This document shows, piece after piece, positions 1-20,646 of a stretch of DNA of 20,646 bases (position 1 is the first letter of the stretch; each line of letters begins with the position of its first letter). Location of the stretch: positions 1 to 20,646 of the IMG/VR virus record IMGVR_UViG_3300023110_000207. One strand, given 5' to 3'. Origin of the DNA: a virus. Both the position numbers and the translations under genes were made by a program. The notes below the pieces were generated by a model. That model ran no database searches. It saw only the letters and a list, made by a program, of their open reading frames with translations, and was not told the DNA's origin.

Positions 1-341
1 CTAAGTGGTGATTTAACTGGTGATGTGCTTGGTAATGTAGTTGGTGATGTAACTGGAAGTATTAGCGGTTCCAGTGCTACACTGTTGACACTAAGTGGTG
101 ATTTAACTGGTGATGTGATTGGTAATGTAGTTGGTGATGTAACTGGAAGTATTAGCGGTTCCAGTGCTACACTGTTGACACTAAGTGGTGATTTAACTGG
201 TGATGTGCTTGGTAATGTAGTTGGTGATGTAACTGGTAGTGTAAGTGGATCAACCGCAACATTTGATACTTTAAGTGGTGATTTAACTGGTGATGTGCTT
301 GGTAATGTAGTTGGTGATGTAACTGGAAGTATTAGCGGTTC
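1..341 (+). repeat. 90-bp tandem repeat array encoding Gly-Asp tetrads
   Basis: Units start at 1, 91, 181 and 271. Units 1 and 2 differ at one base (C28 versus A118). Unit 3 matches until about 230 and then diverges into a GSVSGSTATFDT version. Unit 4 matches for 71 bp, to base 341. Each unit encodes 30 residues made of G-(D/N/S)-hydrophobic-x tetrads, so a 12-nt sub-period lies within the 90-bp period. The array probably extends upstream of the window. Near-identity at synonymous positions indicates recent expansion or homogenisation. Confidence 0.95.
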
Positions 342-3426: not shown

Positions 3427-3431
3427 AAAAT

Positions 3432-6400
3432 ATGTCCAAAACTTATTATAAAATTTATAAAAATGAAAATGGTAATGTTGGTATAGGTACAACAGAACCA
3501 TCCAGTAGACTCCATGTAGCAGAGGATAATGGGGTTAGTATTTTAACTCTTCATAGAGAAGGATCAAATCCTTCAACTGATACAGTTATTGGTCAAATTA
3601 AGTTTGATCAAGATTGGAATTCAAATCAAGAAAATTGGGGTTATATACAATTATCTACAAACACAGTTTCTTTTCGTACAGACTTAGATTTCTATGTTAA
3701 ATCGACAAGTGGTAATTTGATGCAAGGTATGACTATACATGGAACCACTAATAATGGTCCTTATGTTGGTATAGGTACTACAAGTCCAGTAGAAATATTA
3801 GATGTAGCTGGAAAACAAAGAATCACTCAAAATATTGTTTCTAACACTACGTATCCCATGCTAGCTTTTGGAAGCAACCGAAGTATAAATGATTACGGTG
3901 GATTAAATAAAGACTATTGGAGAATAAACGTAGTTACTCCCGGTGCTAACACCACAGGAGAAGCGTCTGCCCATGCGTTTGGGGACCTCGTATTCTCAGG
4001 CGTGGCTGGTAGCAATACAACTTATCTTGATCGTTTTGTAATTCGTGCCGGTGGTAATGTTGGTATAGGTACAACTAACCCAACTTCTCTATTACATATT
4101 GACACAGGAGCTAATAGTGCAGCTAATTTTAGGTTAGGAGCGAATAGAACGGTAGCCAACGCTGCAGTAGGTCAAATAATTGGTGACTGGAATGGTACTG
4201 TTGTATCTAAAATAGCATTTAAAACCGGGGATGACACTATTAACAAAGATAACGGTGAAATCGCTTTTGAAGTTGCAGCTGCAGGAACGACTACAGAAGC
4301 GATGCGTATTAATTCTACTGGTAATGTTGGTATAGGTACAGATAGTCCCGGTTCTAAGTTACATGTGCAGTTAACTAATCAATCTGCTTATTCAGCCTCG
4401 TCATCTTCTACGGATCATTTACAAATTCGTACACAACAAAACACTGGAACGTCTGGAGCGTATTCATCTCTTAGAATGTTAGCTAGCTCTAACAATGGAA
4501 CTAATAATGCAGTTGGTATAATTAATCTAGTTTCGCCTATAAATGGTAATAATGATAGCGCATTTACTTTTCAATTAAGAGACTCTTCATCAGTTTATGG
4601 AGAAAAAGTTAGAATACAAGCTGACGGTAATGTTGGTATAGGTACAACTAATCCTACATTAGGCAAGTTGCAAGTTGCTGGTAGAGGGTATTTTGGTCCT
4701 ATTGGGACGGGAGATGCTACAACTAAAGCTTTAATGGATACATATAGTGTCCTCAAACTAAAGCCGCACGATAGCAACTCTACTAATATGACTTTCGCAC
4801 AAGTTAATAATGGTAGTGGTATTGGTATTCAAGTAACAAATAGTACGCAAACAGCAGATTGGGATATAGCATTAAATCCTTATGGTGGTAATGTTGGTAT
4901 AGGTACTACAAGTCCAACTGCTCAACTTGAGATTAGTAGTTCATCAGCATCAAGTTTATTAAATGTTAAAGGAGCTGGTGGTGATTCGTTATTATTTGTC
5001 AGTGGATCTGGTAAAGTTGGTATAGGTACTCCAAGTCCTGATTCTCTATTGCATCTATCTAGCGCAAGTACATCAGTATTAACAATTCAAAATACTACTA
5101 ATGCAGGAAACGCCTCGTTAAACTTTAGAGATGAGGGTGGGACAGATCAGTTTAAAGTATTTTATGATTTACCTAATAATAGAGCTTGGAATTACGTAAA
5201 TGGTAATGGTTTAACAATATACTCTACTCAAACAAACGCTGAAATAGTTAGATTTGGATTAGGCGGCGCAAACACTTATATAGATTCTTTGTTTAATGGT
5301 AATGTAGGCATAGGAATTACTTCGAGTGCGAAATTAGATGTAAATGGCATAAGTAGATTTAGAGATGAGCTGCAAATTTATAGCTCTACTACTGATATTG
5401 GAGCAATTGGTAATTATAATGGCGCCTTAAATATTCAAGGGACATCTACACGGGATGTCAGTTTGGGCAGCGACTCATATCCTCAAGCTGTATTTATCGA
5501 AGGAACGAATGGTCATGTTGGTATAGGTAATACAAGTCCCACTGCTAAATTACATGTAGATGGAAACACATTATTAGATGGAGATTTAACTGTTACTGGT
5601 CAGACTATAATGTTGAGTGCTAGTTATGTGAATATTACAAGTAGTGTTGTTACCATAGGTGATAATATTCTCACGCTTAACGCTTACAGTCCATTTAAAC
5701 GGTATGCGGGACTTGAAATGCATGACAGCGGTTCTTCTGCTTTAGCACAGTTTTTATGGGATAGTGAGAACAATTACTTTTTTATAAGTGGATCAACTGC
5801 AACAAATAGTCAAAATTTATTAATTCTGGGTCCAGATGGTAAAGCTGATTTAACAGCTGGTGCTTTGCCTGTTTCATACAATGGTAATGAAGTTTCAAGT
5901 AGTATAGTTTATCAAGCTGGAGGTAACGTTGGTATAGGTATAGCTAATCCAAGTACAACTTTAGATGTAGCTGGTACTTTTAAAGTCTCTGATTGGGGTC
6001 ATTTTTCTAATAGTGGAGGGAATGAAATTGTATTGGGTAGTTCAGGCGCTAATTATGGTTTCATTATGAATCCGAGTGCTGGGGTATGGTCTTTAGGTTA
6101 CGGTAGTGATCGAGATACTTTAGGCGCATCTGTTTTGTCTTGGAGTAGTTCTAATCTTGTCACTATTAATAATGCATATAATTTATTTTTAGACGGTGGA
6201 AACATTACATTAGAAAATAGCGCAGGAGATAATTCAGCTACTATTAGTAATGATGGGGCTGCGGGTAGTAGTAAAATTAACGTAGCAGACTCATTATATG
6301 TTATAGAGAGCGGTAATGTTGGTATAGGTACTACAAGTCCAACTGCTCAACTTGAGATTAGTAGTTCATCTGCATCAAGTTTATTAAATATTAAGGGACC

Positions 6401-9400
6401 CGGTGGAGATGGTATGCTTTATGTTAGTGGTTCTGTCTTTGGTCGTGTTGGTATAAATACTACAAGTCCATCTTATAATTTACATGTAACCAACCCCGGC
6501 CCCTATGAGTCGTCGATTGCTATAACAGGAAATGGTGCAAATCAAGACACTTGGGTTATAAAAAGTGAAGATGATTCGGATGGTTCTGCGATTCTTAATT
6601 TTAGAGATGACGATTCATTCACAACAGCATTAACTCTTAAACAAGATGGTAATGTTGGTATAGGTACTAACAGTCCTACTGCAAACTTAGAATTAGCGGG
6701 TTTCAACGCCACTACAGGACCTGTTCTTAGACTTTCGAATTATTCTCCTTCAATTGGTGCTGGTGGTACACATGGAACTATAGAATTTTACTCTGGAGAT
6801 ACCAGTGCCCCTGGCGCTCAGGTTGTTAGCAGTATTAAATCAATTCATGTTGCAACTTCTTCCAATTTTGGAGAATTAGCTTTTTCCACTAATTCTAATA
6901 ATGAGGCAGTCAGGATTGATTTGAATGGTAATGTTGGTATAGGTACTACAAGTCCGGGTTCTAAACTTACAATAAGTGATGGTGATATTAAACTTCAAGG
7001 AAGTCGTTCTGGAGACGCAGATATTCAGTCAATTATATGGCATAATACTAACTCTACAGGATTTGATGTTGCTAAAATTGTAGGTAAAACAGGAACTAAT
7101 ATTTATGAGGGTATCATAAGATTTGAAACCAAAGATTCTGGAGGGACGATGGCTGAAAGAATGCGTATTGATTCTTCTGGCAATGTTAAGATAGGACTTA
7201 ATGGCAGCGGTGGTGGAGCTATTATTAGACCTGCTGGTCAAACAAGTGTATATGCATTAGAAGTTGATCGATCAGGAACAGGTAGTAGTGTTGATATATG
7301 GGATAATAATGATGATTCAGTTATTATTGGCGCTACTAGTAGTGAGCAAATCCTTACAGTAAAGACTGGTGGTAATGTTGGTATAGGTACTACAAGTCCA
7401 ACTGCTCAACTTGAGATTAGTAGTTCATCTGCATCAAGTTTATTAAATATTAAAGGATCGAGCGGCACTGGACTATTATTTGTCAGTGGATCTGGTAAAG
7501 TTGGTATAGGTACTACAGACCCTGCCGTGCAGTTGAATGTTTATGGTACTGATGCAGAATTTAGATTACAAAGAGCTGGTGGTAGTTATACAGGAATTAT
7601 GTATCAAGGATTCCCTAGCGGATTGCCATTTATTGCAGGAGATAATGAATTAGCTTTTGGAGGAGCTGGTACATGGGTGGAACACATGAGAATAACCTCT
7701 GGAGGTAATGTTGGTATAGGCACAACAAGTCCAACTGCTCAACTTGAGATTAGTAGTTCATCAGCATCAAGTTTATTAAATGTTAAAGGAGCTGGTGGCA
7801 CTGGACTATTATTTGTCAGTGGATCTGGTAATGTTGGTATAGGTACTGCAAGTCCCGATGCTACGCTTGATGTTTTAAGGGGAACAGCTACGGGAGGCAC
7901 AGCTCAGTTTAGAGGAACTACCTACACTACTCACATTAATTACAGCACAAATGAACGCACCTATATTCGAGCGGGAAAAGCTGGGGCGTATGTTACTATT
8001 AATGATGCTCACAACGGTGATGTTCATCTAGCGAATGGTGGCGGTAATGTTGGTATAGGTACTGGAAGTCCTTCTCAAAAATTACATGTAGTAGGCACAG
8101 GTTATTTTTCTTCTAATCTTTTATCTGTTGGATTAGCAGCTCAAACAAATTCAAGTTACATAAGAGAATCGAGTGATCAAATTAGATATTTAAGCCGTAT
8201 ACAAGGAAGAAATATTAATCACAATTCTCAATTTATAGCAGGAACTACAAGTGGATATTCTGTATATAATAACTCTGGAGGTTCAGCGGTTGGAATTAGT
8301 GCTGTTTATTATACTAATGATACTGCAATTAGCACATCTGCCGTGCCTAATTCAACTGGATATGTATTAAAAATAAGTTATACTAGCGGCGTTGGATCAA
8401 CAATTCCGGGTTATGGAGGTTTTTATCTTGCAACGAGTAATAGCGAAGTAATTAATGGCGATAAGCAATATAAACAAAAAAATAGAATAGTTTATAGAAT
8501 TTGGGCTAAGATTCCTAGCGGCAGGAATATAGCTTTTGCGAGTAATGCTTATGGATCTAATGGATTTGTTACTTGGCTAACAACAACTGCCGGAAATGAC
8601 GATTGGTATGAGTATATAGCTGTTCAACAAATTGGTTTTGGAGGATCATTTAGTTCAACTGCTTTTTTTAATATAAGTGGTGGATCAGATACTAGCTTTG
8701 ATTGGTATGTAGCGGAATGCTCTGTTATAGATGTTGATTGTCCAGCTGACATTTTATATTCGCCGGGGTTATCAATTGGTTATGGTGGAGGCACTAACTA
8801 CAATAGCGTTCAAGCTGGATGGGGTGGTTTGGGAGTTTTGAATAAAGCTATAATTGGTGGTAGGGTTGGTATAGGTACTACAAGTCCTAATGTTAAATTA
8901 GAAATTCACGGTAGTGATATCACAACTTCGGCTGATACTACAGCAGAACCTGTTTTAAGATTGGTCAGAGATGTTGTCGATCCTAACGCTACATTAAGAA
9001 AAGATAGTGCTGTAGATTTCATGTTGTCTAGGCAGCAAGCTGTAGCTAATAATTTACCTTATACTAGGTTAGATATTAGATTAGCTGGTATTACAGACTC
9101 TTCAACACCTTCTGTGGATGTAATGAGTCTGCTTTATGATGGTAATGTTGGTATAGGCACATCATCGCCGTCATCAAATTTACAAATTGATAATAACAAT
9201 CGAGGCAATTATTTTGGAGGTAAAACAGTTAGTATAAATAATACAGCATTCAACGATATTTTAAGCATAGAATTGCCAGATCATCGATCAGCATATATTA
9301 AGATATTTATGAATGGAGATTGGGCAAGTCATAGTTCAATAGCATATGTTGGTGAGTTTATGATTCAAAATGGAGGTAATAGTTATAATGAACCAGGCAC

Positions 9401-9566
9401 AATTATATCTGAATTTGATAATACCTTCAATGGAAATGTAATTACTCAAATTTTAGATTCAACCAATGACACATTTAAAATACAAGCAAAATTAAGTACA
9501 ACTGGTAATCTATCAAATATTAATCTTACATATCACATAATGGGATCAGTAACATCAATTACATAA
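3432..9566 (+). CDS. Tail-fibre-like NVGIGT-repeat protein 2 (2044 aa)
   Basis: The ATG lies five bases after the TAA of gene 1, with no clear Shine-Dalgarno, so initiation is probably coupled to termination upstream. A 15-residue N-terminus leads directly into the first NVGIGTTEP unit. About 22 such units follow, some degenerate (VGINTTSP, VKIGLNGS), between beta-rich spacers. The spacers include four copies of the LEISSSSASSLLN module and one 354-bp module (5562-5915). Residues about 1555-1810 form an uninterrupted repeat-free insert that looks like a jelly-roll, galactose-binding or CBM-like domain. The last ~105 residues form a separate C-terminal beta domain ending GSVTSIT, which resembles the end of gene 3. 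No S74 chaperone motif is visible. The role is inferred to be a structural, receptor-facing fibre. It could instead be a baseplate or capsid decoration fibre. Confidence 0.88.
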   Translation: MSKTYYKIYKNENGNVGIGTTEPSSRLHVAEDNGVSILTLHREGSNPSTDTVIGQIKFDQDWNSNQENWGYIQLSTNTVSFRTDLDFYVKSTSGNLMQGMTIHGTTNNGPYVGIGTTSPVEILDVAGKQRITQNIVSNTTYPMLAFGSNRSINDYGGLNKDYWRINVVTPGANTTGEASAHAFGDLVFSGVAGSNTTYLDRFVIRAGGNVGIGTTNPTSLLHIDTGANSAANFRLGANRTVANAAVGQIIGDWNGTVVSKIAFKTGDDTINKDNGEIAFEVAAAGTTTEAMRINSTGNVGIGTDSPGSKLHVQLTNQSAYSASSSSTDHLQIRTQQNTGTSGAYSSLRMLASSNNGTNNAVGIINLVSPINGNNDSAFTFQLRDSSSVYGEKVRIQADGNVGIGTTNPTLGKLQVAGRGYFGPIGTGDATTKALMDTYSVLKLKPHDSNSTNMTFAQVNNGSGIGIQVTNSTQTADWDIALNPYGGNVGIGTTSPTAQLEISSSSASSLLNVKGAGGDSLLFVSGSGKVGIGTPSPDSLLHLSSASTSVLTIQNTTNAGNASLNFRDEGGTDQFKVFYDLPNNRAWNYVNGNGLTIYSTQTNAEIVRFGLGGANTYIDSLFNGNVGIGITSSAKLDVNGISRFRDELQIYSSTTDIGAIGNYNGALNIQGTSTRDVSLGSDSYPQAVFIEGTNGHVGIGNTSPTAKLHVDGNTLLDGDLTVTGQTIMLSASYVNITSSVVTIGDNILTLNAYSPFKRYAGLEMHDSGSSALAQFLWDSENNYFFISGSTATNSQNLLILGPDGKADLTAGALPVSYNGNEVSSSIVYQAGGNVGIGIANPSTTLDVAGTFKVSDWGHFSNSGGNEIVLGSSGANYGFIMNPSAGVWSLGYGSDRDTLGASVLSWSSSNLVTINNAYNLFLDGGNITLENSAGDNSATISNDGAAGSSKINVADSLYVIESGNVGIGTTSPTAQLEISSSSASSLLNIKGPGGDGMLYVSGSVFGRVGINTTSPSYNLHVTNPGPYESSIAITGNGANQDTWVIKSEDDSDGSAILNFRDDDSFTTALTLKQDGNVGIGTNSPTANLELAGFNATTGPVLRLSNYSPSIGAGGTHGTIEFYSGDTSAPGAQVVSSIKSIHVATSSNFGELAFSTNSNNEAVRIDLNGNVGIGTTSPGSKLTISDGDIKLQGSRSGDADIQSIIWHNTNSTGFDVAKIVGKTGTNIYEGIIRFETKDSGGTMAERMRIDSSGNVKIGLNGSGGGAIIRPAGQTSVYALEVDRSGTGSSVDIWDNNDDSVIIGATSSEQILTVKTGGNVGIGTTSPTAQLEISSSSASSLLNIKGSSGTGLLFVSGSGKVGIGTTDPAVQLNVYGTDAEFRLQRAGGSYTGIMYQGFPSGLPFIAGDNELAFGGAGTWVEHMRITSGGNVGIGTTSPTAQLEISSSSASSLLNVKGAGGTGLLFVSGSGNVGIGTASPDATLDVLRGTATGGTAQFRGTTYTTHINYSTNERTYIRAGKAGAYVTINDAHNGDVHLANGGGNVGIGTGSPSQKLHVVGTGYFSSNLLSVGLAAQTNSSYIRESSDQIRYLSRIQGRNINHNSQFIAGTTSGYSVYNNSGGSAVGISAVYYTNDTAISTSAVPNSTGYVLKISYTSGVGSTIPGYGGFYLATSNSEVINGDKQYKQKNRIVYRIWAKIPSGRNIAFASNAYGSNGFVTWLTTTAGNDDWYEYIAVQQIGFGGSFSSTAFFNISGGSDTSFDWYVAECSVIDVDCPADILYSPGLSIGYGGGTNYNSVQAGWGGLGVLNKAIIGGRVGIGTTSPNVKLEIHGSDITTSADTTAEPVLRLVRDVVDPNATLRKDSAVDFMLSRQQAVANNLPYTRLDIRLAGITDSSTPSVDVMSLLYDGNVGIGTSSPSSNLQIDNNNRGNYFGGKTVSINNTAFNDILSIELPDHRSAYIKIFMNGDWASHSSIAYVGEFMIQNGGNSYNEPGTIISEFDNTFNGNVITQILDSTNDTFKIQAKLSTTGNLSNINLTYHIMGSVTSIT
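4887..5030 (+). repeat. LEISSSSASSLLN module, copy A
   Basis: This 48-codon block runs from GNVGIGTTSPTAQLEI through SLLNVKGAGG and LLFVSGSGK into the next VGIGT. The DNA is nearly identical to copies starting at 6312, 7371 and 7704 in the same gene, and more distantly to the copy starting at 14076 in gene 4. Because each copy both starts and ends with the NVGIGT motif, it behaves as an exchangeable cassette. Confidence 0.9.
5562..5915 (+). repeat. 354-bp fibre module, copy 2
   Basis: This is the same 118-codon block as at 406-759 and 9920-10273. It differs locally near 5603-5635, where TIMLSASYVNIT replaces SLFLSASYINIT. It shares the GPDGKADLTAG ending with copy 3, whereas copy 1 has GPDNNSSLTAG. 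This patchwork of shared and differing segments suggests gene conversion among copies. Confidence 0.93.
6312..6461 (+). repeat. LEISSSSASSLLN module, copy B
   Basis: The first ~80 bases are nearly identical to copy A. The second half then diverges (KGPGGDGMLYVSGSVFGRVGINT), and the block is two codons longer than the other copies. Confidence 0.85.
7371..7514 (+). repeat. LEISSSSASSLLN module, copy C
   Basis: This 48-codon copy has SLLNIKGSSGTGLLFVSG in its middle. Its 3' half, from ACTGGACTATTATTTGTC on, is identical to copy D apart from the last Lys/Asn codon. Confidence 0.9.
7704..7847 (+). repeat. LEISSSSASSLLN module, copy D (A/C mosaic)
   Basis: The 5' half matches copy A, including AATGTTAAAGGAGCTGGTGG. 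The 3' half matches copy C (the GGCACTGGACTATTATTTGTC segment). The copy is therefore a recombinant of the two types, only about 190 bp downstream of copy C. Confidence 0.88.
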
Positions 9567-9571
9567 AAAAT

Positions 9572-12500
9572 ATGGCAAATCAATTAACAGCATCATTTAA
9601 AATATTAGACAAAAATGTTGGCATAGGCACAACTTCACCTGTTCAAAAACTTCATGTTGTAAATTCTTCTACTGGAGAAATTGCTAGGCTTCAAACTGTA
9701 GGTGGTTCTACAGGAGGTTCATGGTTAGGATTTCATAATTCAACTCTTGACTTAGGTTATTTTGGTTGGGGAAGTACTAATAATAACAATTTATTTATAG
9801 TTAATTATCAAAATGCTCCAGTGTTATTTTATACAAATGGAACAGAAAAAATGCGTATTGCTGCAAATGGGGATGTTGGTATAGGTATTGCAACTCCTAC
9901 TGCTAAATTACATGTAGATGGAAACACATTATTAAACGGAGATTTAACTGTTACTGGTCAGTCTTTATTTTTAAGTGCTAGTTATATAAATATTACAAGT
10001 AGTGTTGTTACCATAGGTGATAATATTCTTACACTTAATGCTTACAGTCCATTTAAACGATACGCTGGAATTGAAATGCATGACAGCGGTTCTTCTGCTT
10101 TAGCACAATTTTTATGGGATAGTGAGAAGAATTATTTCTTTGTAAGTGGATCAACTGCAACAAATAGTCAAAATTTATTAATTCTGGGCCCAGATGGTAA
10201 AGCTGATTTAACAGCTGGTGCTTTGCCTGTTTCATATAATGGTAATGAAGTTTCAAGTAGTATAGTTTATCAAGATGGAGATAAGATTGGTATAGGTACA
10301 GCAAGTCCTCTGAACAAGTTGCACGTTTTTAGTTCGATTGCAAACAATCTGCGAATGGAGCGAGATGCTTCTAACGATTGGCAATTTTTACTTACCGGTG
10401 GATCGCTTCAGCTTCAAGACGCTACTAACAGCGCAACTCGCTTGACCATCGACTCATCCGGTAATGTTGGTATAGGTACAACAAATCCTACATCCCCACT
10501 ACATGTAAAAGCTGGTAATTCTGCTATAGCTTTAAATGAATATTCCAATGGTGCGACAATTTGGCTTGATGGAGCAGATGGTGATTTTACAGGTGGAGAT
10601 TATTTTCAAATTCTAGCTAATAGTAGTTCTTATTTAGGATTAGGCGGTTATGGCGGAGGCGCTACACCTTTAAATGTAACAAACACAGGTAAAGTTGGTA
10701 TAGGTACTACAAGTCCAGCTTATAGATTAGATAATAACGATTTATCTATTCGAACAACTTCTGCTACAGCTGAAAAAGATTTTTACATTAATTTTGCTAA
10801 CGGTGCAGCTAATCAAAAAGTTGACATATCTTTTCCTTATTACAATGGAAGTGTGTTCTGGGGGTATTTAGAAGTAACAATTACTGCGGGGTATAGTAAT
10901 CAGTTATCTACTGGTAAAATAACTAAAGTATTTTCAGTTGGGTTAAATGCCCCTGGAGGGAGTCCAGGAAGTTATACTTCACAAATTTATGATGATACAA
11001 ATTACTATACTTCTGTTTATGGATCAATTTCTAATCAATGGGGTATAGAAGGTATTAACTTTAATTCAACAACTGGTCAATACTACATTACAATAGCCCA
11101 CAGAGTATCTACGGGGAATGCTATACGGGTAAAAGTCAAAGGGTTCGGCATTGAGACGGGGTACTTTGCTGATACTCAATTCGGTGGTTTATCGGCTGGC
11201 AGCGTTTACACTACAGATACAACAGTTTTTGATGCTCCTGTTATAACAGTTCCGAAGTTGAATGTAGAAACCACCGGAACTTTTGGAGATGATTTGTTAA
11301 TTGGTCCTACAGCCACTCCTGATATTGTATTACAGTCTTCAGGTACCGGCGTTAACACAAATGGCAAACTTTATTGGAAAGATTCTGGAGGCACAGTAAG
11401 GGCTTCTGCTGGATACGAAACTGGTAGTACAGAGTTTTTTATTGATAATACTTTTAGTGGAGGAGTTTATTTAAAGTCAAATGGCACGATAGGCTTAACA
11501 GTTAATTCTGCTGCTAATGTAGGTATAGGTACTACAAGTCCAAATTACTTATTAGATGTAGAAAAAGATGGTGCTGGATTACGAGTGTATAATACTACTT
11601 CTGGTAGTCAAACTGATCTTCTACTAACTCAAGAAGGTACAACAGGTCTTTCCCGTATTTTTTTCGGAGATACAGCTAATCATGATATTGGAAGTATTAT
11701 TTATCGTCATAATGGCGACTCAATGGCATTTGAGACAAGTGGTTCAGAAGCTGTACGAATTGATTCATCCGGTAATGTTGGTATAGGTACTACAATTCCC
11801 AATTATGAATTACATGTAGGAGGATCTATCTACTCTTCTGTGAGGCTAGGTGTTCAAGCTCTTAACACTAGTTATATAGCGACCCTTGGAGGAGCTACTG
11901 ATGCAAAACTAGTACTAGCTGGAGCTACTAATCCTTACATTCGTTTTCAAGAAGGGACTACTGATAAAGCTTACATACAATGGGATTCTGGTGAAGGAGC
12001 TATATTATTTAGAAATCAAGAGGGTGATAATTTTTGTTTTAACCCAAATGATACAGCAGGAGCTGTATGGATAAAACTTCAAGGTTCAGATCACGATAAT
12101 TGGGGAGGGATTTATGCTCAAGAAAACGGAGGAACTCATCAAATAGGATTTTTAGACGGCGACAATCACTGGGCTTCACGACATACCGATAATACGTCTT
12201 GGGAATGGTTAGTTAATAATAGCGTTAAGATGACGCTTAATAGTTCTGGTAGTGTTGGTATAGGAACAACTTCACCGACATCAACGCTTAACATTTACGA
12301 TTCTACCGCTGGCGCTTCCGTGCTAAAAGTTGATGGAACAAGCGGTACTATTTTCGAAGTCACTGACGACTTAAGTAATTCATTAATGTCGGTAAACACA
12401 ATCTCAGGCTTACCTGCGTTTGAAGTTTTCGCTGATTATCACATAGTAGCAGGAAGATATAACCAAAACGATTTTTATTTAGACACGAATGGTAATTTAG

Positions 12501-13150
12501 GGCTAGGTACTGCAAGTCCATCCTATAAACTTGAAATCGATGGGACAACAGACTTTGGTAACACAACGACATATAACGACGGTGCTGCTGGATTAATTAG
12601 TTGGAATTCTGGTACTAAATTTAAAGTAAAAGGTCAATCTGGTCATGCATTAAGTTTAGGAGCTAATGGAACAGAAGATTATGTATGGATAGCTACCGAT
12701 GGCAATGTTGGTATCGGTACATCAAGTCCAGCAGCCACGCTTGATGTAACACAAGGAACTGCAAACACTAATAACAAATTAATGAAAGTCGCTGATGATG
12801 TTCTCAGTGTTTATAAAGTAACCGGCCAAACAAATCACACGGTAACTTTAACTTGCGGTTCTTACTTCCAAGCGGAAGTAGTCATCACCGCAAATCAAAC
12901 AAACAGCGGTACATATAACAATTTATATATTAGAGGTATTTGGTCTAATAACCATACATCGCATCATTGGGATGAAATAGAAAACATTGGCAGCTTAACG
13001 GGAAGCAGTTTCTCGATTACGGTAGGTCAAAACGATGTAACTAATTCTGGAAAGCTAACGATCACGCACACATATTCTAGTGGGAGTTTTTCTCAAATGG
13101 TAGTTAGAATAACAGATCTTTATGGAGTACATTCATATTCAATAACTTAA
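9572..13150 (+). CDS. Tail-fibre-like NVGIGT-repeat protein 3 (1192 aa)
   Basis: The ATG follows the TAA of gene 2 by five bases, in the same 11-base context as the gene 1/2 junction. The N-terminus is 14 residues long before the first NVGIGTTSP. About ten repeat units follow, with the third 354-bp module at residues ~117-234. A repeat-free beta segment at residues ~390-570 (ENDs near GDDLLIGP) may be an inserted folded domain. The last ~110 residues (from about VADDVLSVYK) form a C-terminal domain with an NQTNSGTYNN...IWSNNHTSHHW pattern ending HSYSIT; it resembles the end of gene 2. Segments 10320-10460 and 12240-12570 look richer in C and G than their surroundings, consistent with cassette exchange. 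No catalytic or S74 motif was seen. A fibre role is inferred from the repeat family and gene context. Confidence 0.87.
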   Translation: MANQLTASFKILDKNVGIGTTSPVQKLHVVNSSTGEIARLQTVGGSTGGSWLGFHNSTLDLGYFGWGSTNNNNLFIVNYQNAPVLFYTNGTEKMRIAANGDVGIGIATPTAKLHVDGNTLLNGDLTVTGQSLFLSASYINITSSVVTIGDNILTLNAYSPFKRYAGIEMHDSGSSALAQFLWDSEKNYFFVSGSTATNSQNLLILGPDGKADLTAGALPVSYNGNEVSSSIVYQDGDKIGIGTASPLNKLHVFSSIANNLRMERDASNDWQFLLTGGSLQLQDATNSATRLTIDSSGNVGIGTTNPTSPLHVKAGNSAIALNEYSNGATIWLDGADGDFTGGDYFQILANSSSYLGLGGYGGGATPLNVTNTGKVGIGTTSPAYRLDNNDLSIRTTSATAEKDFYINFANGAANQKVDISFPYYNGSVFWGYLEVTITAGYSNQLSTGKITKVFSVGLNAPGGSPGSYTSQIYDDTNYYTSVYGSISNQWGIEGINFNSTTGQYYITIAHRVSTGNAIRVKVKGFGIETGYFADTQFGGLSAGSVYTTDTTVFDAPVITVPKLNVETTGTFGDDLLIGPTATPDIVLQSSGTGVNTNGKLYWKDSGGTVRASAGYETGSTEFFIDNTFSGGVYLKSNGTIGLTVNSAANVGIGTTSPNYLLDVEKDGAGLRVYNTTSGSQTDLLLTQEGTTGLSRIFFGDTANHDIGSIIYRHNGDSMAFETSGSEAVRIDSSGNVGIGTTIPNYELHVGGSIYSSVRLGVQALNTSYIATLGGATDAKLVLAGATNPYIRFQEGTTDKAYIQWDSGEGAILFRNQEGDNFCFNPNDTAGAVWIKLQGSDHDNWGGIYAQENGGTHQIGFLDGDNHWASRHTDNTSWEWLVNNSVKMTLNSSGSVGIGTTSPTSTLNIYDSTAGASVLKVDGTSGTIFEVTDDLSNSLMSVNTISGLPAFEVFADYHIVAGRYNQNDFYLDTNGNLGLGTASPSYKLEIDGTTDFGNTTTYNDGAAGLISWNSGTKFKVKGQSGHALSLGANGTEDYVWIATDGNVGIGTSSPAATLDVTQGTANTNNKLMKVADDVLSVYKVTGQTNHTVTLTCGSYFQAEVVITANQTNSGTYNNLYIRGIWSNNHTSHHWDEIENIGSLTGSSFSITVGQNDVTNSGKLTITHTYSSGSFSQMVVRITDLYGVHSYSIT
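9920..10273 (+). repeat. 354-bp fibre module, copy 3
   Basis: Its 5' part encodes SLFLSASYINIT as in copy 1, and its 3' part encodes GPDGKADLTAG as in copy 2. It is thus intermediate between the other two. Long stretches are unchanged at synonymous sites relative to 406-759. Confidence 0.93.
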
Positions 13151-13154
13151 AATC

Positions 13155-16100
13155 ATGGGAATAGCAACGCAAACATCAGATGGATTAAAATTTAACACAA
13201 CGTACATGTACGTTAAGAATAACTCGGGTACCACTTTAGCCGCTATTTCCAGCGGTGGCAATCTTGGTATAGGTACTGCAAGTCCATCTTATAAATTAGA
13301 TGTGAATGGAGATGTTCGTGTAAATGGTTCTACTTCAGCAATTGATGCAAATTACGGAGTTTTTCTGGGAACATATTCTGGTGGTACTAATATTAGTCCG
13401 GGTGAACTTGTGTTAGCGACTCAAGCTAAAACCGGTTGGGGACCGGGAGACGAGTTAGGTAGAATTAGGTTTTGGCTAGGGGACGCCTCTGGAGTTGGAC
13501 GTAGAGATGTTGCAAAAATTATAGCTGTTAACGAAGATGGCAACGGATCTACCACAACAACTGCTAGCGGTGCTTTAGCTTTTTATACTTCCAACTATAA
13601 TAGTAGCGTTGCGGAAAGAGTAAGAATCGCTCAAGATGGTAAAGTTGGTTTAGGCGCTAGTAGTCCCACTGCCAGATTTCAAATAAATAATGATTATACA
13701 ATAGACGCTAATTATGGTTCAGCCGACCTTTACGTCAAAGAAACTGCATCTCAATCAAGCTATGATCCTGATGTTCAAAACACAACTGATCTTCAAGCAT
13801 TAATTACTGTTTCTAGTAATAATACAGCAGGTCCAGATAAACCCGGTTTAGTATTATACAATGATGATAATACTGCAGGTGGTTTTTCACCGATGCTTCT
13901 TTTCTCTAAAAGAGAAAGTGGGTCTTCTCCGTATAAAGCTACAATGGCTGGAATTTATGCCCGATCCCCTTTAGGAACAGGGGATAACAATAGTTGGATT
14001 GATGGTGAGTTAATATTTGCAACTGCTGGTGCTTCGACTTCTGGTATAACACAACGGATGGTCATTAATAAAGAGGGGCTAGTTGGTATAGGTACTACAA
14101 GTCCTTCTGCTCAACTTGAAATTAGCAGTTCATCTGCATTAAGTTTATTAAATATTGAGGGATCTGGAGGAAATAACATATTATATGTAAGTGGATCTGG
14201 TCGTGTTGGTATAGGAACCACACAACTATATGAAAACTTAACAGTAGCTGGTCAATCAATTGGTATTCGAGGAGATGTACCTCAATTAAAATTAATTGAT
14301 ACAAATAGTAACTCAGATTATAATCTTGTAAATAATAATGGAAACTTTGGCATTTATGATTCTACGAATGCTGCATATAGATTATATACACTAGCAAATG
14401 GTAATGTAGGTATAGGTACTACAAGTCCCAGTTATAAACTGGACGTTAACGGGGATGCTTCTGCTACAACCCTTTTATCAGACTACAGAAGACTGAGGTC
14501 TTATGGTAATTTTAGCACCTCAACCAATAACACCGCAGGTTGGTATCCATTGGCTCACTGGGGAACATCGTCTGGAAACAGAGGTGGGTTTATAATTTAC
14601 GTTTCTTACACTGGTGGAAGCTGGGGTCCTACAACATATGTAATCAAAGTTTTTAAAGACTGGGGTAGTACAGGCACAATATTGGTAGAAAAGTATGGCG
14701 GCAATAATTACATAACTGATGTAAGAATAATCGCAAATTCCAGTTCTGTTTATTATCTCGAACTATACCTTACAGCTCAATCAGTAGGGCATAGTTTCTC
14801 TGCTTATTATGAAGGGTATGGCTATGACGAAAGTGGTACTAGCACTATGACTTTCGTTAATACAAGTTTAGCTCTTTCTACAAATACCGGAACTGTCGCA
14901 GCAAGCATGGGCCTAGGTATGGGGCAAGGATTAGCTACTGTTAATGCTTTAGTGCGAGATAACTTGTTTTTAGGCTCTAGAATGTATCATTACGGTGATA
15001 ATGATACATATTTAGGTTTCAACACTAATGAAGCATTTCTTGTTGCCGGGAGCATTAACGCATTGCATTTATATTCGACAGAGGCAGTAGTAAACGAAAA
15101 CGGAGCGAATTTTAATTTCAGAGTCGAAGGCGCCACTGATCAAAACTTGTTAGTTTGTGATGCTAGTGCAGATAAAGTTGGTATAGGCACTGCAAGTCCA
15201 TCTTATCCTCTTACAGTTGCTGGCGCAGACTCTATCGGTATTGATGATTATATATTGCATAATGGAGATGGTAATACTAAATTTGGTTTTTCTGGAGCAG
15301 ATACATTTAAAATTAGGACAGCTGGGGTAGATGCTTTATTTGTAAATTCATCACAAAATGTTGGTATAGGTACTGCAAGTCCAACTTCTGCTAAGCTTGA
15401 AATTCATCAGAATTCTGGTAATAATTTTAAAATTTTTGGGCAAAGCGCATTAGAAGTATTTGGAATTGGTGCGACTGGTGTAACGACAATAACTGGTCAA
15501 ACAGGTAGCACTGTATTCGGAATAACGAATAGTGGTGCAGGGGATTTTATGAATGTCGGTGGTGGATCTCTATATGTTCAAAAAAGTGGTAATGTTGGTA
15601 TAGGTACCGTAAGTCCGACTGAAAAATTAGAAGTATCTGGGTCTATTTTAAGTAATTCATTTGGTGTGTCAGGATCTGCTGTTACTCCTTCTTTTATAGG
15701 AGTTCCCCAAGGTGGTAGTTACAACAGTAATTCCACTGAAACTGGTTACTTAAAAATTAATTTACCAATAGAACCAGTTAGCACCACTGATGTAACCGTA
15801 AGTTTTAAAGTTAGAGTTTCAGAAGGAAGCATCAATAAAATTTCAATATACAATGTTACAGGAACATTATCTGGCGCAACAATATGGCAAGCTTCTTCAG
15901 CATATTTTGAAACTCCATGGAAAACTACTACTGGTGCTACTTCAGGTAGTTTTATAGATTTAGGAAGAGATGGAACTAGTACTACAGGTAAATCTTCTGT
16001 TTTAATAAACTCTGGACGAAATGAGTTGTCTTCGTGGTTTTCTCCAATTGTTCAAGTATATGATGTAAGTATTGGAGGAGTAAACACCTATAATGTAAGT

Positions 16101-16538
16101 GATTGGCTTGAAGGATGGAATGTTTCTTTCACAACATCAAAATTGGGTTATACAAACACTTCATATGCGATGGGAAGAATTAGTGGTACAAATCCAACTC
16201 CTCTAAAATATAATCAATCGAAAAGTGGTACGGTTATATTATCAATTCAAGGTAATTGGGGTGGTTTTCAAAGAATATCTCTAGCTAGTGGAACTACTAT
16301 ACAATCAATTTCTTATACTAATATACCAGTTGGATATTCTGTTACAATTGCTATACTGCTTTTATACGGAGGTACTGCGACTGTTACATGGACTAATGTT
16401 AAATGGTCCGGCGGCGTAACACCAACATTAACCGGTGTAAATGGAAAAGCAGACTTATTTACAATAACTTCATATGATGGTGGTAGTAATTGGATTGGAT
16501 CAGTAGTAGCTCAAAATCTAGATAGTACTAATTTATAA
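13155..16538 (+). CDS. Tail-fibre-like NVGIGT-repeat protein 4 (1127 aa)
   Basis: The gene starts four bases after the TAA of gene 3. A ~37-residue N-terminus precedes NLGIGTASP. About eight repeat units are present, fewer per residue than in gene 2. A repeat-free segment at residues ~440-600, rich in Tyr, Trp and Gly, probably forms a separate beta domain. The VVNENG...FRVEG...LLVCDAS module lies at 15081-15188. The final ~300 residues (after ~830) contain no repeat and end with a KADLFTITSYDGGSNWIGSV stretch, a type of ending seen in phage fibre tips (from memory). As the last giant protein before the LamG-like gene and the chaperone-like gene, it is a plausible distal or receptor-binding fibre. 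That placement is an inference. Confidence 0.86.
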   Translation: MGIATQTSDGLKFNTTYMYVKNNSGTTLAAISSGGNLGIGTASPSYKLDVNGDVRVNGSTSAIDANYGVFLGTYSGGTNISPGELVLATQAKTGWGPGDELGRIRFWLGDASGVGRRDVAKIIAVNEDGNGSTTTTASGALAFYTSNYNSSVAERVRIAQDGKVGLGASSPTARFQINNDYTIDANYGSADLYVKETASQSSYDPDVQNTTDLQALITVSSNNTAGPDKPGLVLYNDDNTAGGFSPMLLFSKRESGSSPYKATMAGIYARSPLGTGDNNSWIDGELIFATAGASTSGITQRMVINKEGLVGIGTTSPSAQLEISSSSALSLLNIEGSGGNNILYVSGSGRVGIGTTQLYENLTVAGQSIGIRGDVPQLKLIDTNSNSDYNLVNNNGNFGIYDSTNAAYRLYTLANGNVGIGTTSPSYKLDVNGDASATTLLSDYRRLRSYGNFSTSTNNTAGWYPLAHWGTSSGNRGGFIIYVSYTGGSWGPTTYVIKVFKDWGSTGTILVEKYGGNNYITDVRIIANSSSVYYLELYLTAQSVGHSFSAYYEGYGYDESGTSTMTFVNTSLALSTNTGTVAASMGLGMGQGLATVNALVRDNLFLGSRMYHYGDNDTYLGFNTNEAFLVAGSINALHLYSTEAVVNENGANFNFRVEGATDQNLLVCDASADKVGIGTASPSYPLTVAGADSIGIDDYILHNGDGNTKFGFSGADTFKIRTAGVDALFVNSSQNVGIGTASPTSAKLEIHQNSGNNFKIFGQSALEVFGIGATGVTTITGQTGSTVFGITNSGAGDFMNVGGGSLYVQKSGNVGIGTVSPTEKLEVSGSILSNSFGVSGSAVTPSFIGVPQGGSYNSNSTETGYLKINLPIEPVSTTDVTVSFKVRVSEGSINKISIYNVTGTLSGATIWQASSAYFETPWKTTTGATSGSFIDLGRDGTSTTGKSSVLINSGRNELSSWFSPIVQVYDVSIGGVNTYNVSDWLEGWNVSFTTSKLGYTNTSYAMGRISGTNPTPLKYNQSKSGTVILSIQGNWGGFQRISLASGTTIQSISYTNIPVGYSVTIAILLLYGGTATVTWTNVKWSGGVTPTLTGVNGKADLFTITSYDGGSNWIGSVVAQNLDSTNL
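14076..14219 (+). repeat. LEISSSSASSLLN module, copy E (in gene 4)
   Basis: This block has the same 48-codon layout as the gene 2 copies (TTSPSAQLEISSSSALSLLN...LYVSGSGRVGIGT). It has more substitutions, so it is an older or transferred copy. It shows that modules move between genes as well as within them. Confidence 0.82.
15081..15188 (+). repeat. FRVEG-LLVCDAS module, copy 2
   Basis: This 36-codon counterpart of 2602-2709 has the same length and the same anchor residues. It leads into KVGIGTASP. Divergence at synonymous sites is high compared with the 354-bp module. Confidence 0.8.
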
Positions 16539-17324: not shown

Positions 17325-17879
17325 ATGAAAAAATATTATTATATGCAAATAGAAAGTAATGAAGGAACGATAACAAATGCGTCAATAATATCAGGACCAG
17401 TTTATCTTCCAAAAAATTATAAAAATGTTTCTAACTTTAGTGACATTTCAGATGATTCACTATTAATAAATTTAGAATGGATGGGGGATTCCGACAAAGC
17501 ATTTTGGGAAGCGATTTTTCCAGAAACTACACCATCAACTTCATCAACTCAAAAATTAATAGAAAATACATCTGTTAACATTTCCAATTCTACTGTCGAT
17601 GTCACCTTTTCTATAGTAGAAATGTCATCCGATGAAATAAATGAAAAAATAGAAAATTATAAAACTGAATGGAGAGAACACCGAAATAGATTATTGTTTT
17701 TAACAGATTTTACTCAGTTGCCAGATGTGCCATTAACTGATCAAGTTAAATCAAACTTCGCAGTTTATAGAGAAAATTTAAGAAATTTGTTTGATGTAGC
17801 AACTGTTGAAGATATTGTTTGGCCTGAACCACCGTCAGGCACAAACATTGACTTCGACCAATATTATATACCAAATTAA
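17325..17879 (+). CDS. Tail assembly chaperone-like protein (Phage_tail_APC type C-terminus)
   Basis: The gene starts two bases after the stop of the LamG-like gene. Residues ~115-155 show the pattern W-R-x-x-R-N-x-L-L, then LTDFTQLPDVPLT, then K-x-x-F-x-x-YR-x-x-LR. This is the hallmark of the C-terminal domain in phage tail or fibre assembly chaperones (Phage_tail_APC, DUF4376-like), where SDWTQ-PD-PL is usual. The N-terminal ~100 residues are not recognised and contain a low-complexity TTPSTSST stretch at ~68-75. Small proteins of this kind commonly follow fibre genes and help their folding or attachment. That fits its place as the last gene of the operon. Its TAA shares the bases TTAA with the stop of the converging 51-aa gene. 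Confidence 0.82.
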   Translation: MKKYYYMQIESNEGTITNASIISGPVYLPKNYKNVSNFSDISDDSLLINLEWMGDSDKAFWEAIFPETTPSTSSTQKLIENTSVNISNSTVDVTFSIVEMSSDEINEKIENYKTEWREHRNRLLFLTDFTQLPDVPLTDQVKSNFAVYRENLRNLFDVATVEDIVWPEPPSGTNIDFDQYYIPN

Positions 17880-18031
17880 GGTCTTCCTTGACCTCTATAT
17901 TTTTTTCTATAGTTCTTACTGTTTTTGTTTGAAGAACTTTTATTTTTTGAATGACGACCTTTCATATTGTGAATTTTGTCATTCAATCCTTTTTTTTCTT
18001 GATGTTTACCTGAACCTTTTGCTTTAGCCAT
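17876..18031 (-). CDS. Small, highly basic protein (51 aa), function unknown
   Basis: The sequence begins MAKAKGSGKHQEKKG and ends YRKKYRGQGRP. I count 13 Lys and 4 Arg against 2 acidic residues in 51, so it is strongly cationic and probably disordered. Nucleic acid binding or a packaged virion role is plausible but not shown. The start is supported by an AAAGGAAAT ribosome site ~10 nt upstream and by a leader copied in front of the methyltransferase. Its first 11 codons resemble those of the methyltransferase. The stop overlaps the last four bases of the converging chaperone-like gene. The overlapping plus-strand frame at 17806-18027 is judged spurious in comparison. Confidence 0.8.
   Translation of the reverse strand: MAKAKGSGKHQEKKGLNDKIHNMKGRHSKNKSSSNKNSKNYRKKYRGQGRP
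17879..17906 (+). terminator. Possible weak terminator of the fibre operon
   Basis: AGGTC (17879-17883) can pair with GACCT (17890-17894) around a TTCCTT loop, followed by CTATATTTTTTT. The stem is only five base pairs, so activity is uncertain. It sits immediately after the last stop codon, inside the 3' end of the opposing 51-aa gene. Confidence 0.4.
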
Positions 18032-18064
18032 ATTTTATATTTCCTTTCTTGTTTATATTAAAAT
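17999..18064 (-). repeat. 66-nt leader/start cassette, copy 1
   Basis: This covers the leader and the first 11 codons of the 51-aa gene. It aligns without gaps to 19149-19214, with six mismatches: one in the leader and five in the coding part. Homology ends abruptly after the CAA codon on one side and at the TGA of the 59-aa gene on the other. Confidence 0.9.
18032..18064 (-). promoter_or_regulatory. Leader copy 1: candidate late promoter plus RBS
   Basis: Read on the minus strand, this leader has ATATAAACA followed by AAGAAAGGAAATATAAAAT and then ATG. TATAAACA is one base from the T4-type late promoter TATAAATA, so a late promoter is possible. The purine run is a credible ribosome site. The leader is identical, except for one base, to that at 19182-19214. 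Confidence 0.5.
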
Positions 18065-18080
18065 TATTTTTATAGAAAAT

Positions 18081-19181
18081 TTAATCCCATTCTATTACTT
18101 TAAATTTATTATCAATTAATTGTTTTTTTATTTCATTATGATAACAACCACCATTCAAAACTATATGATCAGGATTCGCATTTAAAACTGGAGTGCAAAA
18201 ATGATTAGTCCCGTATAGTCTTAAATCATGTTTCAGATGGTCATTATCTAAAATCGAAATTATTTTATTTTGATCCATTTTTTTAGATAAATACAATAGT
18301 AATCCAGTCATTATATGACAACCAAACAAATAAAATTTATCTATTTGACTTAGCTTTTTCTCTATAAGAGATATTTTGTCATTTATATTTTTTAGATAGT
18401 TATTTACATAATCTTTAATCTTACAATTTTCTACCTCTGTGGATCTAGTAAACCGAAAATCGTTTGTTTTTTCAGCTTGAATAAAGATACTATGGTCTTT
18501 ATAGGTATCAAACACGCAATTTTGAAAACCATTTTTGTTTAAAACTTTTTCACTAGAAGTTAATGTGAAGTACGATACATGTTCGCTATTGAATATCGTG
18601 AAGTGTTCACTTTCAATGGAAGCTGTTAGATTTGGAAATGATAAAAATATTTTTCCTTGGTCAGTTAAACTTTGTCTTAGATCGTTTAAAAAATCATCTA
18701 AATTAGGAACATGTTCTAACACATGAGATAAAAGTATGATATCATACTTTTTGTTAGGATCTCCATAGAAAAATCTTTTGTGTATCTTAATATTTTGATT
18801 TTCTTCGAAAAACGGATTAGGTTCATAACAATCTATTTGATAATGTCGTCCAATTTGTTTGGCAAGATAACCTGATCCAGAACCTATTTCGCAGATTTTT
18901 TTATCTTTTAAATCAATTCTTGAGATAAATTTGAAAAACTCATCGTGGTGTTCCAACCAAACTTTTCCTACTGCGGAATTTCTAGGTAATGCGTAAACAA
19001 TGTCTTGAGGTGGTATATTTTTTTGATGTACTAGACCTGTATCAGTATCAATTTGGATGAAGAAATCATAAAAAATATCATCAGATGGGGGTGTTTTACA
19101 ACACGAGTGTAATACAGGAAAGTTATTCCATTCGAAAATTTTCATAATTTGATGTTCATTTAAACTTTTTGCTTTAGCCAT
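18081..19181 (-). CDS. SAM-dependent C-methyltransferase-like protein (366 aa)
   Basis: The layout matches the sugar C-methyltransferase family (Methyltransf_13, Methyltransf_11/23, Methyltransf_14 order). Residues ~20-90 look like the N-terminal domain, with a CC pair at 27-28 but not the usual set of zinc-binding cysteines. The SAM-binding loop EIGSGSGY is at 98-105, with E120 at the end of the next strand. LSHVLEHV is at 152-158 and GKIFLSFPN at 176-184. Residues ~280-360 fit the C-terminal domain (YLFGCHIMTG, SILDND). Relatives act on nucleotide sugars or related carbonyl substrates in surface glycan or antibiotic pathways; the substrate here is unknown. The first ~10 residues (MAKAKSLNEHQ) resemble the start of the 51-aa protein and seem added to the family's usual N-terminus. 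It may alter phage or host surface glycans. Confidence 0.82.
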   Translation of the reverse strand: MAKAKSLNEHQIMKIFEWNNFPVLHSCCKTPPSDDIFYDFFIQIDTDTGLVHQKNIPPQDIVYALPRNSAVGKVWLEHHDEFFKFISRIDLKDKKICEIGSGSGYLAKQIGRHYQIDCYEPNPFFEENQNIKIHKRFFYGDPNKKYDIILLSHVLEHVPNLDDFLNDLRQSLTDQGKIFLSFPNLTASIESEHFTIFNSEHVSYFTLTSSEKVLNKNGFQNCVFDTYKDHSIFIQAEKTNDFRFTRSTEVENCKIKDYVNNYLKNINDKISLIEKKLSQIDKFYLFGCHIMTGLLLYLSKKMDQNKIISILDNDHLKHDLRLYGTNHFCTPVLNANPDHIVLNGGCYHNEIKKQLIDNKFKVIEWD

Positions 19182-19214
19182 ATTTTATATTTCCTTCCTT
19201 GTTTATATTAAAAT
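19149..19214 (-). repeat. 66-nt leader/start cassette, copy 2
   Basis: This covers the leader and first 11 codons of the methyltransferase gene and is the counterpart of 17999-18064, 1150 bp away in the same orientation. Direct repeats flanking the methyltransferase would allow its gain or loss by one homologous exchange. Confidence 0.9.
19182..19214 (-). promoter_or_regulatory. Leader copy 2: candidate late promoter plus RBS
   Basis: The minus strand reads ATATAAACAAGGAAGGAAATATAAAAT before the ATG of the methyltransferase. It differs from leader copy 1 at a single base, which makes the purine-rich ribosome site slightly stronger (AAGGAAGGAAA). It begins exactly at the TGA of the 59-aa gene upstream. 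Confidence 0.5.
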
Positions 19215-19393
19215 CAATTACAGTGACAATCTCCTCCACAACATTCACTATCAGATAAGTTGTCTTCTGATTCTAAACAGTTTTCAATAATTTGTGCTAA
19301 TTGAAATCTAGCTACATTGGAGTCTAAGTTGACTTGTGGATTTGAACTTATAAATTCATCGATACATTGCTTAATTTTATTTAATTGTGTCAT
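19214..19393 (-). CDS. Small protein with Cys-rich C-terminus (59 aa)
   Basis: The protein starts MTQLNKIKQCIDEFI and ends ECCGGDCHCN. Cysteines at 51, 52, 56 and 58 with His57 give a CCx3CHC tail, which could bind a metal or take part in thiol chemistry; this is inference. The body looks helical and acidic. The start is supported by AGGA five bases upstream of the ATG. It overlaps the end of the 130-aa gene by 17 nt, as expected for compact phage operons. I do not recognise a family. Confidence 0.75.
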   Translation of the reverse strand: MTQLNKIKQCIDEFISSNPQVNLDSNVARFQLAQIIENCLESEDNLSDSECCGGDCHCN

Positions 19394-19769: not shown

Positions 19770-19787
19770 TGTTAATAAATATTAAAA

Positions 19788-19979
19788 TTATTTGTACTGT
19801 GGATACATATCTCTCAATATAACATATTGTGGTCTGTCTTTAAATAAGATAATATCATCAATTAAGTTCTTAAAGTTTCTACCTTTTATTTTTTGTCGAA
19901 TTCGAAGTAAATGCTCTTTCTCTTGTTTAGTTAACCTTGGCAATTTATATTTTTCATCAGAACTGTCCATAGTATTCAT
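19788..19979 (-). CDS. Hypothetical small protein (63 aa)
   Basis: This is a basic protein with a KLPRLTKQEKEHLLRIRQKIKGR stretch that looks helical. No family is recognised. The frame overlaps the 3' end of the GcvH-like gene by 23 nt from the first ATG, or 14 nt if translation starts at Met4 (19970). Neither start has a convincing ribosome site. It fills the space between two supported genes on the same strand, which argues for it being real. Confidence 0.6.
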   Translation of the reverse strand: MNTMDSSDEKYKLPRLTKQEKEHLLRIRQKIKGRNFKNLIDDIILFKDRPQYVILRDMYPQYK

Positions 19980-20313
19980 CTTTATCCATCAATAAATTTA
20001 TTTCAGATATATCTTCTAATTTTATTTTAAAAAACCAACCGGATTCTTCAGCATCTTGATTTACAACTGACGGATCATTTATAACTTCTTCATTTATTTC
20101 TATTATTTCTCCACTGACAGGACAAAATACATCACTAGCAGATTTAACTGATTCAACTACACAGCACGGGTCTCCCGCTTTAAATGTTTTTCCAACATCA
20201 GGTAATTCAATAAAACATAATTCTGTTAATTCATTTTGAGCATGGTCGCTTATTCCTATTGTTCCCACATCACCTTCAATTTTAATCCATTCATGACTTT
20301 TTGCAAATTTCAT
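19957..20313 (-). CDS. gcvH: Glycine cleavage system H protein-like lipoyl carrier (118 aa)
   Basis: H protein shuttles the aminomethyl intermediate between the P, T and L proteins of glycine cleavage on a lipoyl-lysine arm. The whole family pattern is visible: KSHEWIKIEGDVGTIGIS near the start, then ELPDVG. The lipoylation site is ESVKSASDVFCPVSGE, with the acceptor expected at Lys57. Near the end come VVNQDAEESGWFFKIKLED and LLMDKDEYY. Length is slightly below the usual ~125-130. The acceptor lysine is intact, so it could be lipoylated by host enzymes. No gcvT, gcvP or lipoate gene lies in the window, so it would work with host partners. It starts 10 nt after the phosphoesterase stop, so the two are probably co-transcribed. 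In a phage it would be an auxiliary metabolic gene. Confidence 0.9.
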   Translation of the reverse strand: MKFAKSHEWIKIEGDVGTIGISDHAQNELTELCFIELPDVGKTFKAGDPCCVVESVKSASDVFCPVSGEIIEINEEVINDPSVVNQDAEESGWFFKIKLEDISEINLLMDKDEYYGQF

Positions 20314-20323
20314 TATTTATGAC

Positions 20324-20646
20324 TCAATGACTTTTATCTCTCAAAACATGTTTTTTATTTTTCATTATTTTTTTCAAATCATCAAAAGATAAAACTTTTT
20401 TGTATCCATCCCATCCTACATCTAATATTTTTCCTTCTGGGTTTTCTGATTTTGTTTCTGGACATGTATAGTGACTATGACCACACAAACACCAACTACC
20501 TCGTTGACATTGATTCCATATATAAAGAGGATAATGTGACAAAACTATTTCTTGTCCATCTATTTCAATCTCTTTGTAATGTCCTAACATTGTAAATCCG
20601 TGTTGAGTATTTTGCGACGGATAAGGTTCTATAGATTTATTTTGAC
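20324..20646 (-). CDS. Calcineurin-like metallophosphoesterase (C-terminal part; 5' end outside window)
   Basis: The frame is open to the window edge, and the internal Met at 20590 is not the start. The visible 106 residues contain the C-terminal metal-binding motifs of the family. These are LSHYPL (metal-ligand His, after a GHYKEIEIDGQEIV strand) and LCGHSHYTCP (GHSH), followed by LDVGWDGYKKVLSFDDL, which matches the usual DVGxD...SxxEl ending. The N-terminal DxH and GNHD motifs should lie just outside the window. Such proteins are frequent in phages and hydrolyse phosphoesters, with varied substrates; the target here is unknown. Together with the GcvH-like gene it belongs to the leftward accessory operon. 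Confidence 0.85.
   Translation of the reverse strand, partial: QNKSIEPYPSQNTQHGFTMLGHYKEIEIDGQEIVLSHYPLYIWNQCQRGSWCLCGHSHYTCPETKSENPEGKILDVGWDGYKKVLSFDDLKKIMKNKKHVLRDKSH

Follow-up and report, generated by a model that had tools for sequence, protein, structure and literature searches.

A start region shared by a small basic protein gene and an adjacent methyltransferase gene in a viral genome fragment

Results

Organization of the locus

The analyzed DNA (hereafter, the window) is the entire 20,646-base virus record IMGVR_UViG_3300023110_000207. Positions 1–16538 hold four huge tandem open reading frames (1141, 2044, 1192, and 1127 aa) with NVGIGTTSP-type repeats, and near-identical segments (the 300-nt family D7) recur among them. 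On the plus strand, a 260-aa gene and then a tail fibre assembly gene precede a minus-strand cluster, whose order from position 20,646 downward is phosphoesterase, GcvH, 63-aa, 130-aa, 59-aa, methyltransferase, and 51-aa gene. The GcvH gene (19957–20313) encodes a phage-borne glycine cleavage H protein that matches PF01597 (E = 1.7e-38) and contains ESVKSASD, the lipoyl-lysine motif, and GcvH proteins with 71% identity are found in two IMG/VR contigs (L064 and L065), where they adjoin a QueE-like gene. No family match was obtained for the 59-aa gene product in Pfam or PHROGs or for the 51-aa protein in Pfam, PHROGs, or NCBIfam, and the Rfam search gave no match. At the lower end of the cluster (17876–17895), the stop codons of the 51-aa and tail fibre assembly genes overlap convergently, and the adjoining hairpin is terminator-like on both strands. 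The features to which the analysis refers are the following:

17876–18031, minus strand: 51-aa basic protein gene, a member of a family of small basic phage proteins with 58 IMG/VR loci
17878–17895: terminator-like hairpin where the 51-aa and tail fibre assembly genes converge (terminator-like sites: 2 found, 0.6 expected)
17999–18064, minus strand: copy A of the start block (−33 to +33 of the 51-aa gene), the proposed source copy
18042–18046, minus strand: Shine–Dalgarno-like AAGGA of copy A (−15 to −11)
18055–18066, minus strand: TAATTTTAATAT element of copy A, from the motif count
18081–19181, minus strand: gene of a 366-aa class I SAM-dependent methyltransferase (PF13489), whose residues 1–11 would come from the start of the 51-aa gene
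19149–19214, minus strand: copy B of the start block, before and inside the methyltransferase gene, from sequence comparison
19192–19196, minus strand: Shine–Dalgarno-like AAGGA of copy B (−15 to −11)
19205–19216, minus strand: TGATTTTAATAT element of copy B, which contains the 59-aa gene's stop (TGA), from the motif count
19214–19393, minus strand: 59-aa gene, from the list of open reading frames, whose stop codon abuts copy B
19779–19790, minus strand: third copy of the TAATTTTAATAT element, lying upstream of the 130-aa gene and lacking AAGGA, from the motif count
Upstream of the 51-aa, methyltransferase, and 130-aa genes: TTTTAATAT, a candidate promoter-like stretch

Two neighbouring genes carry the same start block

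Comparison of the 51-aa and methyltransferase genes around their start codons revealed 60 identical bases out of 66 between −33 and +33, without gaps and on the minus strand, exactly to the base as the original prediction had it. Copy A comprises an AT-rich leader, the Shine–Dalgarno-like AAGGA, the ATG, and the first 11 codons. Copy B begins with the final base of the TGA that stops the 59-aa gene, and the predicted coincidence of the block's edge with that stop was hence confirmed. Equally correct were the statements that the copies are direct repeats flanking the methyltransferase, which lie 1150 bp apart, and that the two genes are unrelated, their bodies being alike at 28 of 85 positions, a background level.

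A 37-nt core of the block occurs twice in the window and in none of 100 dinucleotide-preserving shuffles, with up to three mismatches allowed. When 65 phage loci (640 kb, 8950 gene pairs, open reading frames of at least 45 aa) were surveyed, the 51-aa/methyltransferase pair was the only one to reach at least 36 of 50 identical bases over −35 to +15. Misassembly appears an unlikely source of the repeat, considering that the longest exact run common to both copies is only 30 nt and that their flanks differ.

Common descent and uneven conservation of the block

The six mismatches between the copies (−16, +16, +20, +22, +23, and +25) are all transitions, which make up 29.5% of the mismatches between unrelated bases here, so that the chance of six out of six is about 7e-4. 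This transition-only pattern marks the two starts as descendants of a single sequence. Transversions begin at +35 and identity past +33 falls to 10/27; the duplicated block therefore ends at the HQ codons (CATCAA) and spans 11 codons. The common leader could stem from selection for the same promoter and ribosome-binding site (RBS), but selection on the leader alone would be insufficient, because the common codons run up to CATCAA. The pair accordingly consists of tandem, same-strand genes with unrelated bodies whose RBS, start codon, and first codons are of common origin.

Within the block, identity amounts to 47/48 over −33 to +15, i.e. to codon 5, and then to 13/18 over +16 to +33 (Fisher p ~0.004). 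Every one of the five differences in codons 6–11 changes an amino acid, resulting in the N-termini MAKAKGSGKHQ for the 51-aa protein and MAKAKSLNEHQ for the methyltransferase. Few as these sites are, they suggest that the leader and initiation region are maintained, whereas the peptide past codon 5 drifts.

Three parts of the leader are separable, namely the 12-mer TRATTTTAATAT, the AAGGA motif (−15 to −11), and the start codons. The 2771-nt minus-strand cluster holds three sites of the 12-mer against 0.006 expected, two of which belong to the duplicated block, and none of 500 shuffles contained at least two copies; the 12-mer may be a promoter element that is separable from the RBS. The label "promoter" that had been given to the whole leader was not borne out by a sigma-70 scan, which remained at background (22 found, 18.9 expected), and the leader RNA folds no better than its shuffles (z of 0.45 and 1.09). 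No terminator-like site was detected within the block or in the stretch that separates the methyltransferase from the 51-aa gene; therefore, both genes are probably also transcribed together. The proposal that the methyltransferase is a moron is doubtful, as no terminator-like site separates it from the 51-aa gene; promoter-like matches are at background.

The 51-aa gene as the probable donor of the start

The family of the 51-aa protein (58 IMG/VR loci, L003–L060) is widespread, and its members combine a variable N-terminal half with a conserved C-terminal half and the nearly fixed end YRKKYRGQGR. A MAK or MAR start was found in 21 of 32 compared relatives versus 12 of 1327 other phage genes (0.9%; background genes from eight phage records), a large effect among relatives that are not independent of one another.

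The methyltransferase matches PF13489 with an E value of 2.6e-19 (70 bits against a cut-off of 27) and displays the SAM-binding motif CEIGSGSG; its PHROG matches are phrog_24523 and phrog_37107. Three relatives were available, all distant (32–36% identity), in phage S-SKS1 (32%) and in the IMG/VR contigs L062 and L063. The phage relatives start with MTERNN, and the two IMG/VR relatives with MTERNNCILDNK. Before the conserved part, the relatives have their own extension of about 15–18 residues, similar in length but different in sequence. Since most of the compared 51-aa relatives start with MAK or MAR and the methyltransferase relatives with MTERNN, the MAKAK start in all likelihood originated in the 51-aa gene, its donor, and is foreign to the methyltransferase. 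The original prediction of a foreign N-terminal tag is thereby upheld for the origin of the start codons; a role of the tag was not supported.

All three methyltransferase relatives reside in sugar/glycan-type, glycosyltransferase-like gene clusters, where unannotated neighbours were named by eye, and no methyltransferase match was found near the 51-aa family members in the 58 IMG/VR loci. The pairing of the two genes consequently does not look ancestral. In cellular genomes, two scans with short peptide patterns, which miss distant relatives, revealed no relative of the methyltransferase. It is the glycan-type context of the relatives that suggests sugar C-methylation as its activity; no specific NCBIfam model for a sugar C-methyltransferase reached its cut-off. 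The predicted structures had low confidence values (mean pLDDT of 64.9 and 51.7).

The S-SKS1 relative SWZG_00045 (L061, 7955–9056) looks frameshifted near its start when compared with L062 and L063, and its annotated start is probably wrong. Residue 13 (MKIFEW) was considered as the former start of the methyltransferase, since the S-SKS1 match begins at residue 14; against this choice, ~16–18 residues precede the corresponding point in L062 and L063, and it is here that S-SKS1 looks frameshifted. The T4 prohead protease cuts at LxE sites, and the LxE in MAKAKSLNE was weighed as a possible site of cleavage during packaging but rejected, being one weak three-residue match that is absent from the 51-aa protein. 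A PADLOC mad2 match was likewise not taken as a defence role for the methyltransferase, as it spans only the common methyltransferase domain.

Search for further copies and for syntenic relatives

The 20.6-kb fragment contains two leader copies only, and every other gene of the window lacks the full leader. Outside the window, the leader was not found in IMG/VR with three exact patterns containing degenerate positions, nor in T4, S-SKS1, or six other records and contigs. None of the 57 other 51-aa-family loci had its own start block copied (best 32/50, the same strand being no better than the other), and hence the 51-aa start does not appear to be a recurrent donor elsewhere. The original prediction of a reusable, mobile expression start had singled out beforehand the occurrence of this leader before other genes in related phages; none was seen in the collections covered, which is part of the outcome that it had named as counter-evidence, and a mobile start is thus not supported. 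Queries with the methyltransferase, the 51-aa protein, GcvH, and the joined 59-/63-/130-aa proteins retrieved only non-syntenic loci or none.

Common N-termini were also observed in other contigs. In a 200-kb IMG/VR contig (L091, 4275–5758), four tandem small genes with unrelated bodies begin with M(K/R)DKDAxLMMEAL, which is possibly a shared targeting peptide. Members of a ~100-aa protein family (L098, 14053–15089, and L104, 4685–6375) have the near-identical N-terminal stretch EEKLYPxFKKFMETQF, which recurs in many genes of one phage contig.

Discussion

Taken together, we consider it probable that recombination placed a copy of the 51-aa gene's 5′ end, namely its leader, RBS, and first 11 codons, onto the methyltransferase gene that now lies directly upstream. 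The methyltransferase, fused to the copied start, would have acquired the short foreign N-terminus MAKAKSLNEHQ, and the start signals that serve the 51-aa gene would drive its expression as well. Selection would then keep positions −33 to +15, which correspond to the leader and the stretch covered by the initiating ribosome, and let codons 6–11 drift. Two routes can be envisaged, in which the methyltransferase either entered from elsewhere as a ready-made fusion or acquired the fusion locally, following a tandem duplication; the order of events can only be inferred, because no relative without the methyltransferase, or with the methyltransferase but without the repeat, was found. The event itself may have been a short-homology recombination of the T4 type. 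T4 recombines at microhomologies of 6–10 bp, amplifying segments (PMC9391042), and the required recombination would therefore be ordinary for such phages. The repeats, which lie 1150 bp apart, could also recombine with each other and thereby cleanly delete the methyltransferase.

The closest known parallel is the ipII/ipIII pair of T4, which the same start-region survey recovered when applied to eight records, and the window pair is of this same, already known kind. In both cases, adjacent tandem genes with unrelated bodies have in common the DNA of the RBS, the start, and the first 10–11 codons. The two cases differ in what is conserved: the shared peptide in T4, and in the window the upstream DNA but not the peptide past codon 5. 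Moreover, the family of the window's donor is unrelated to ipII/ipIII. The T4 genes imm.1 and nrdC.10, likewise recovered by that survey, have unrelated bodies and a leader and RBS that are alike up to the start codon (38/50), yet they are located ~27 kb apart rather than in tandem, and their coding starts diverge after the first codons.

A different reading is that the leader and first codons form a mobile cassette, a recurrent recombination site at which accessory genes are swapped. The direct repeats on either side of the methyltransferase, which coincide exactly with a gene boundary, would be compatible with it, as would the PeSLs of T4-type phages, which are reported to be regulatory DNA common to gene boundaries and a proposed recombination site that mediates gene shuffling between T4-like phages (as cited in PMC4503421). 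To that extent, PeSLs resemble the window block as shared regulatory DNA at gene boundaries. However, a PeSL consists of an early promoter and a stem-loop, whereas the window block lacks a stem-loop, extends over the start codon into the coding sequence, and has no other copies that we could find, either in the three IMG/VR pattern searches and the eight records (T4 and S-SKS1 among them) or as a copied start in the 57 other family loci. We regard such a cassette as unlikely.

Alternatively, the leader could be a start signal used genome-wide, i.e. the promoter and RBS of many genes, with early codons made alike by selection on initiation. Cluster K mycobacteriophages provide a precedent in the SAS/ESAS, repeats immediately upstream of start codons that cover the RBS (PMC3203893), and the window block similarly is a repeated sequence covering the RBS next to start codons. 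The 12-mer upstream of the 130-aa gene and a conserved region that fits the initiation footprint would agree with this reading. Yet the SAS are 13 bp long, are present in 11–19 copies per genome, and lie upstream of the start codon, and the SAS sequence GGGATAGGAGCCC had no match in the window with up to two mismatches. The absence of the full leader from the window's other genes, together with a transition-only homology that continues beyond codon 5 as far as CATCAA, more than a start signal would require, renders this second reading quite improbable.

Least credible, and in our judgement very improbable, is a functional N-terminal tag that would send both proteins to the same place, e.g. the capsid: the 51-aa protein is indeed very basic, and the MKTYQEFIAEA that adjacent ipII and ipIII share together with their RBS is a capsid targeting sequence, the packaging signal of T4 internal proteins (PMC3012670), but no conserved targeting peptide of that kind is present in the window N-termini, where codons 6–11 carry five changes, all of them amino-acid-changing, unlike the conserved T4 peptide, and members of the 51-aa family vary in their N-terminal region.

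Returning to the copying of the 51-aa gene's start onto the methyltransferase, a further-reaching proposal would make the 51-aa gene a start donor in its lineage, in which accessory genes are captured behind its copied leader and first codons and can later be lost through recombination between the repeats. We offer this as a speculation that is very probably wrong; if it were true, new genes would at once obtain the expression timing and level of the 51-aa gene.

The window case by itself leaves current understanding unchanged. It nevertheless represents a clear case of a phage accessory gene that gains an expression start copied from the adjacent gene, in which the edges are exact and the donor can be identified, and it differs from the T4 pair in that the regulatory part is conserved instead of the peptide. 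Together with T4 ipII/ipIII, it indicates that start regions, beyond promoters alone, are units copied by recombination.
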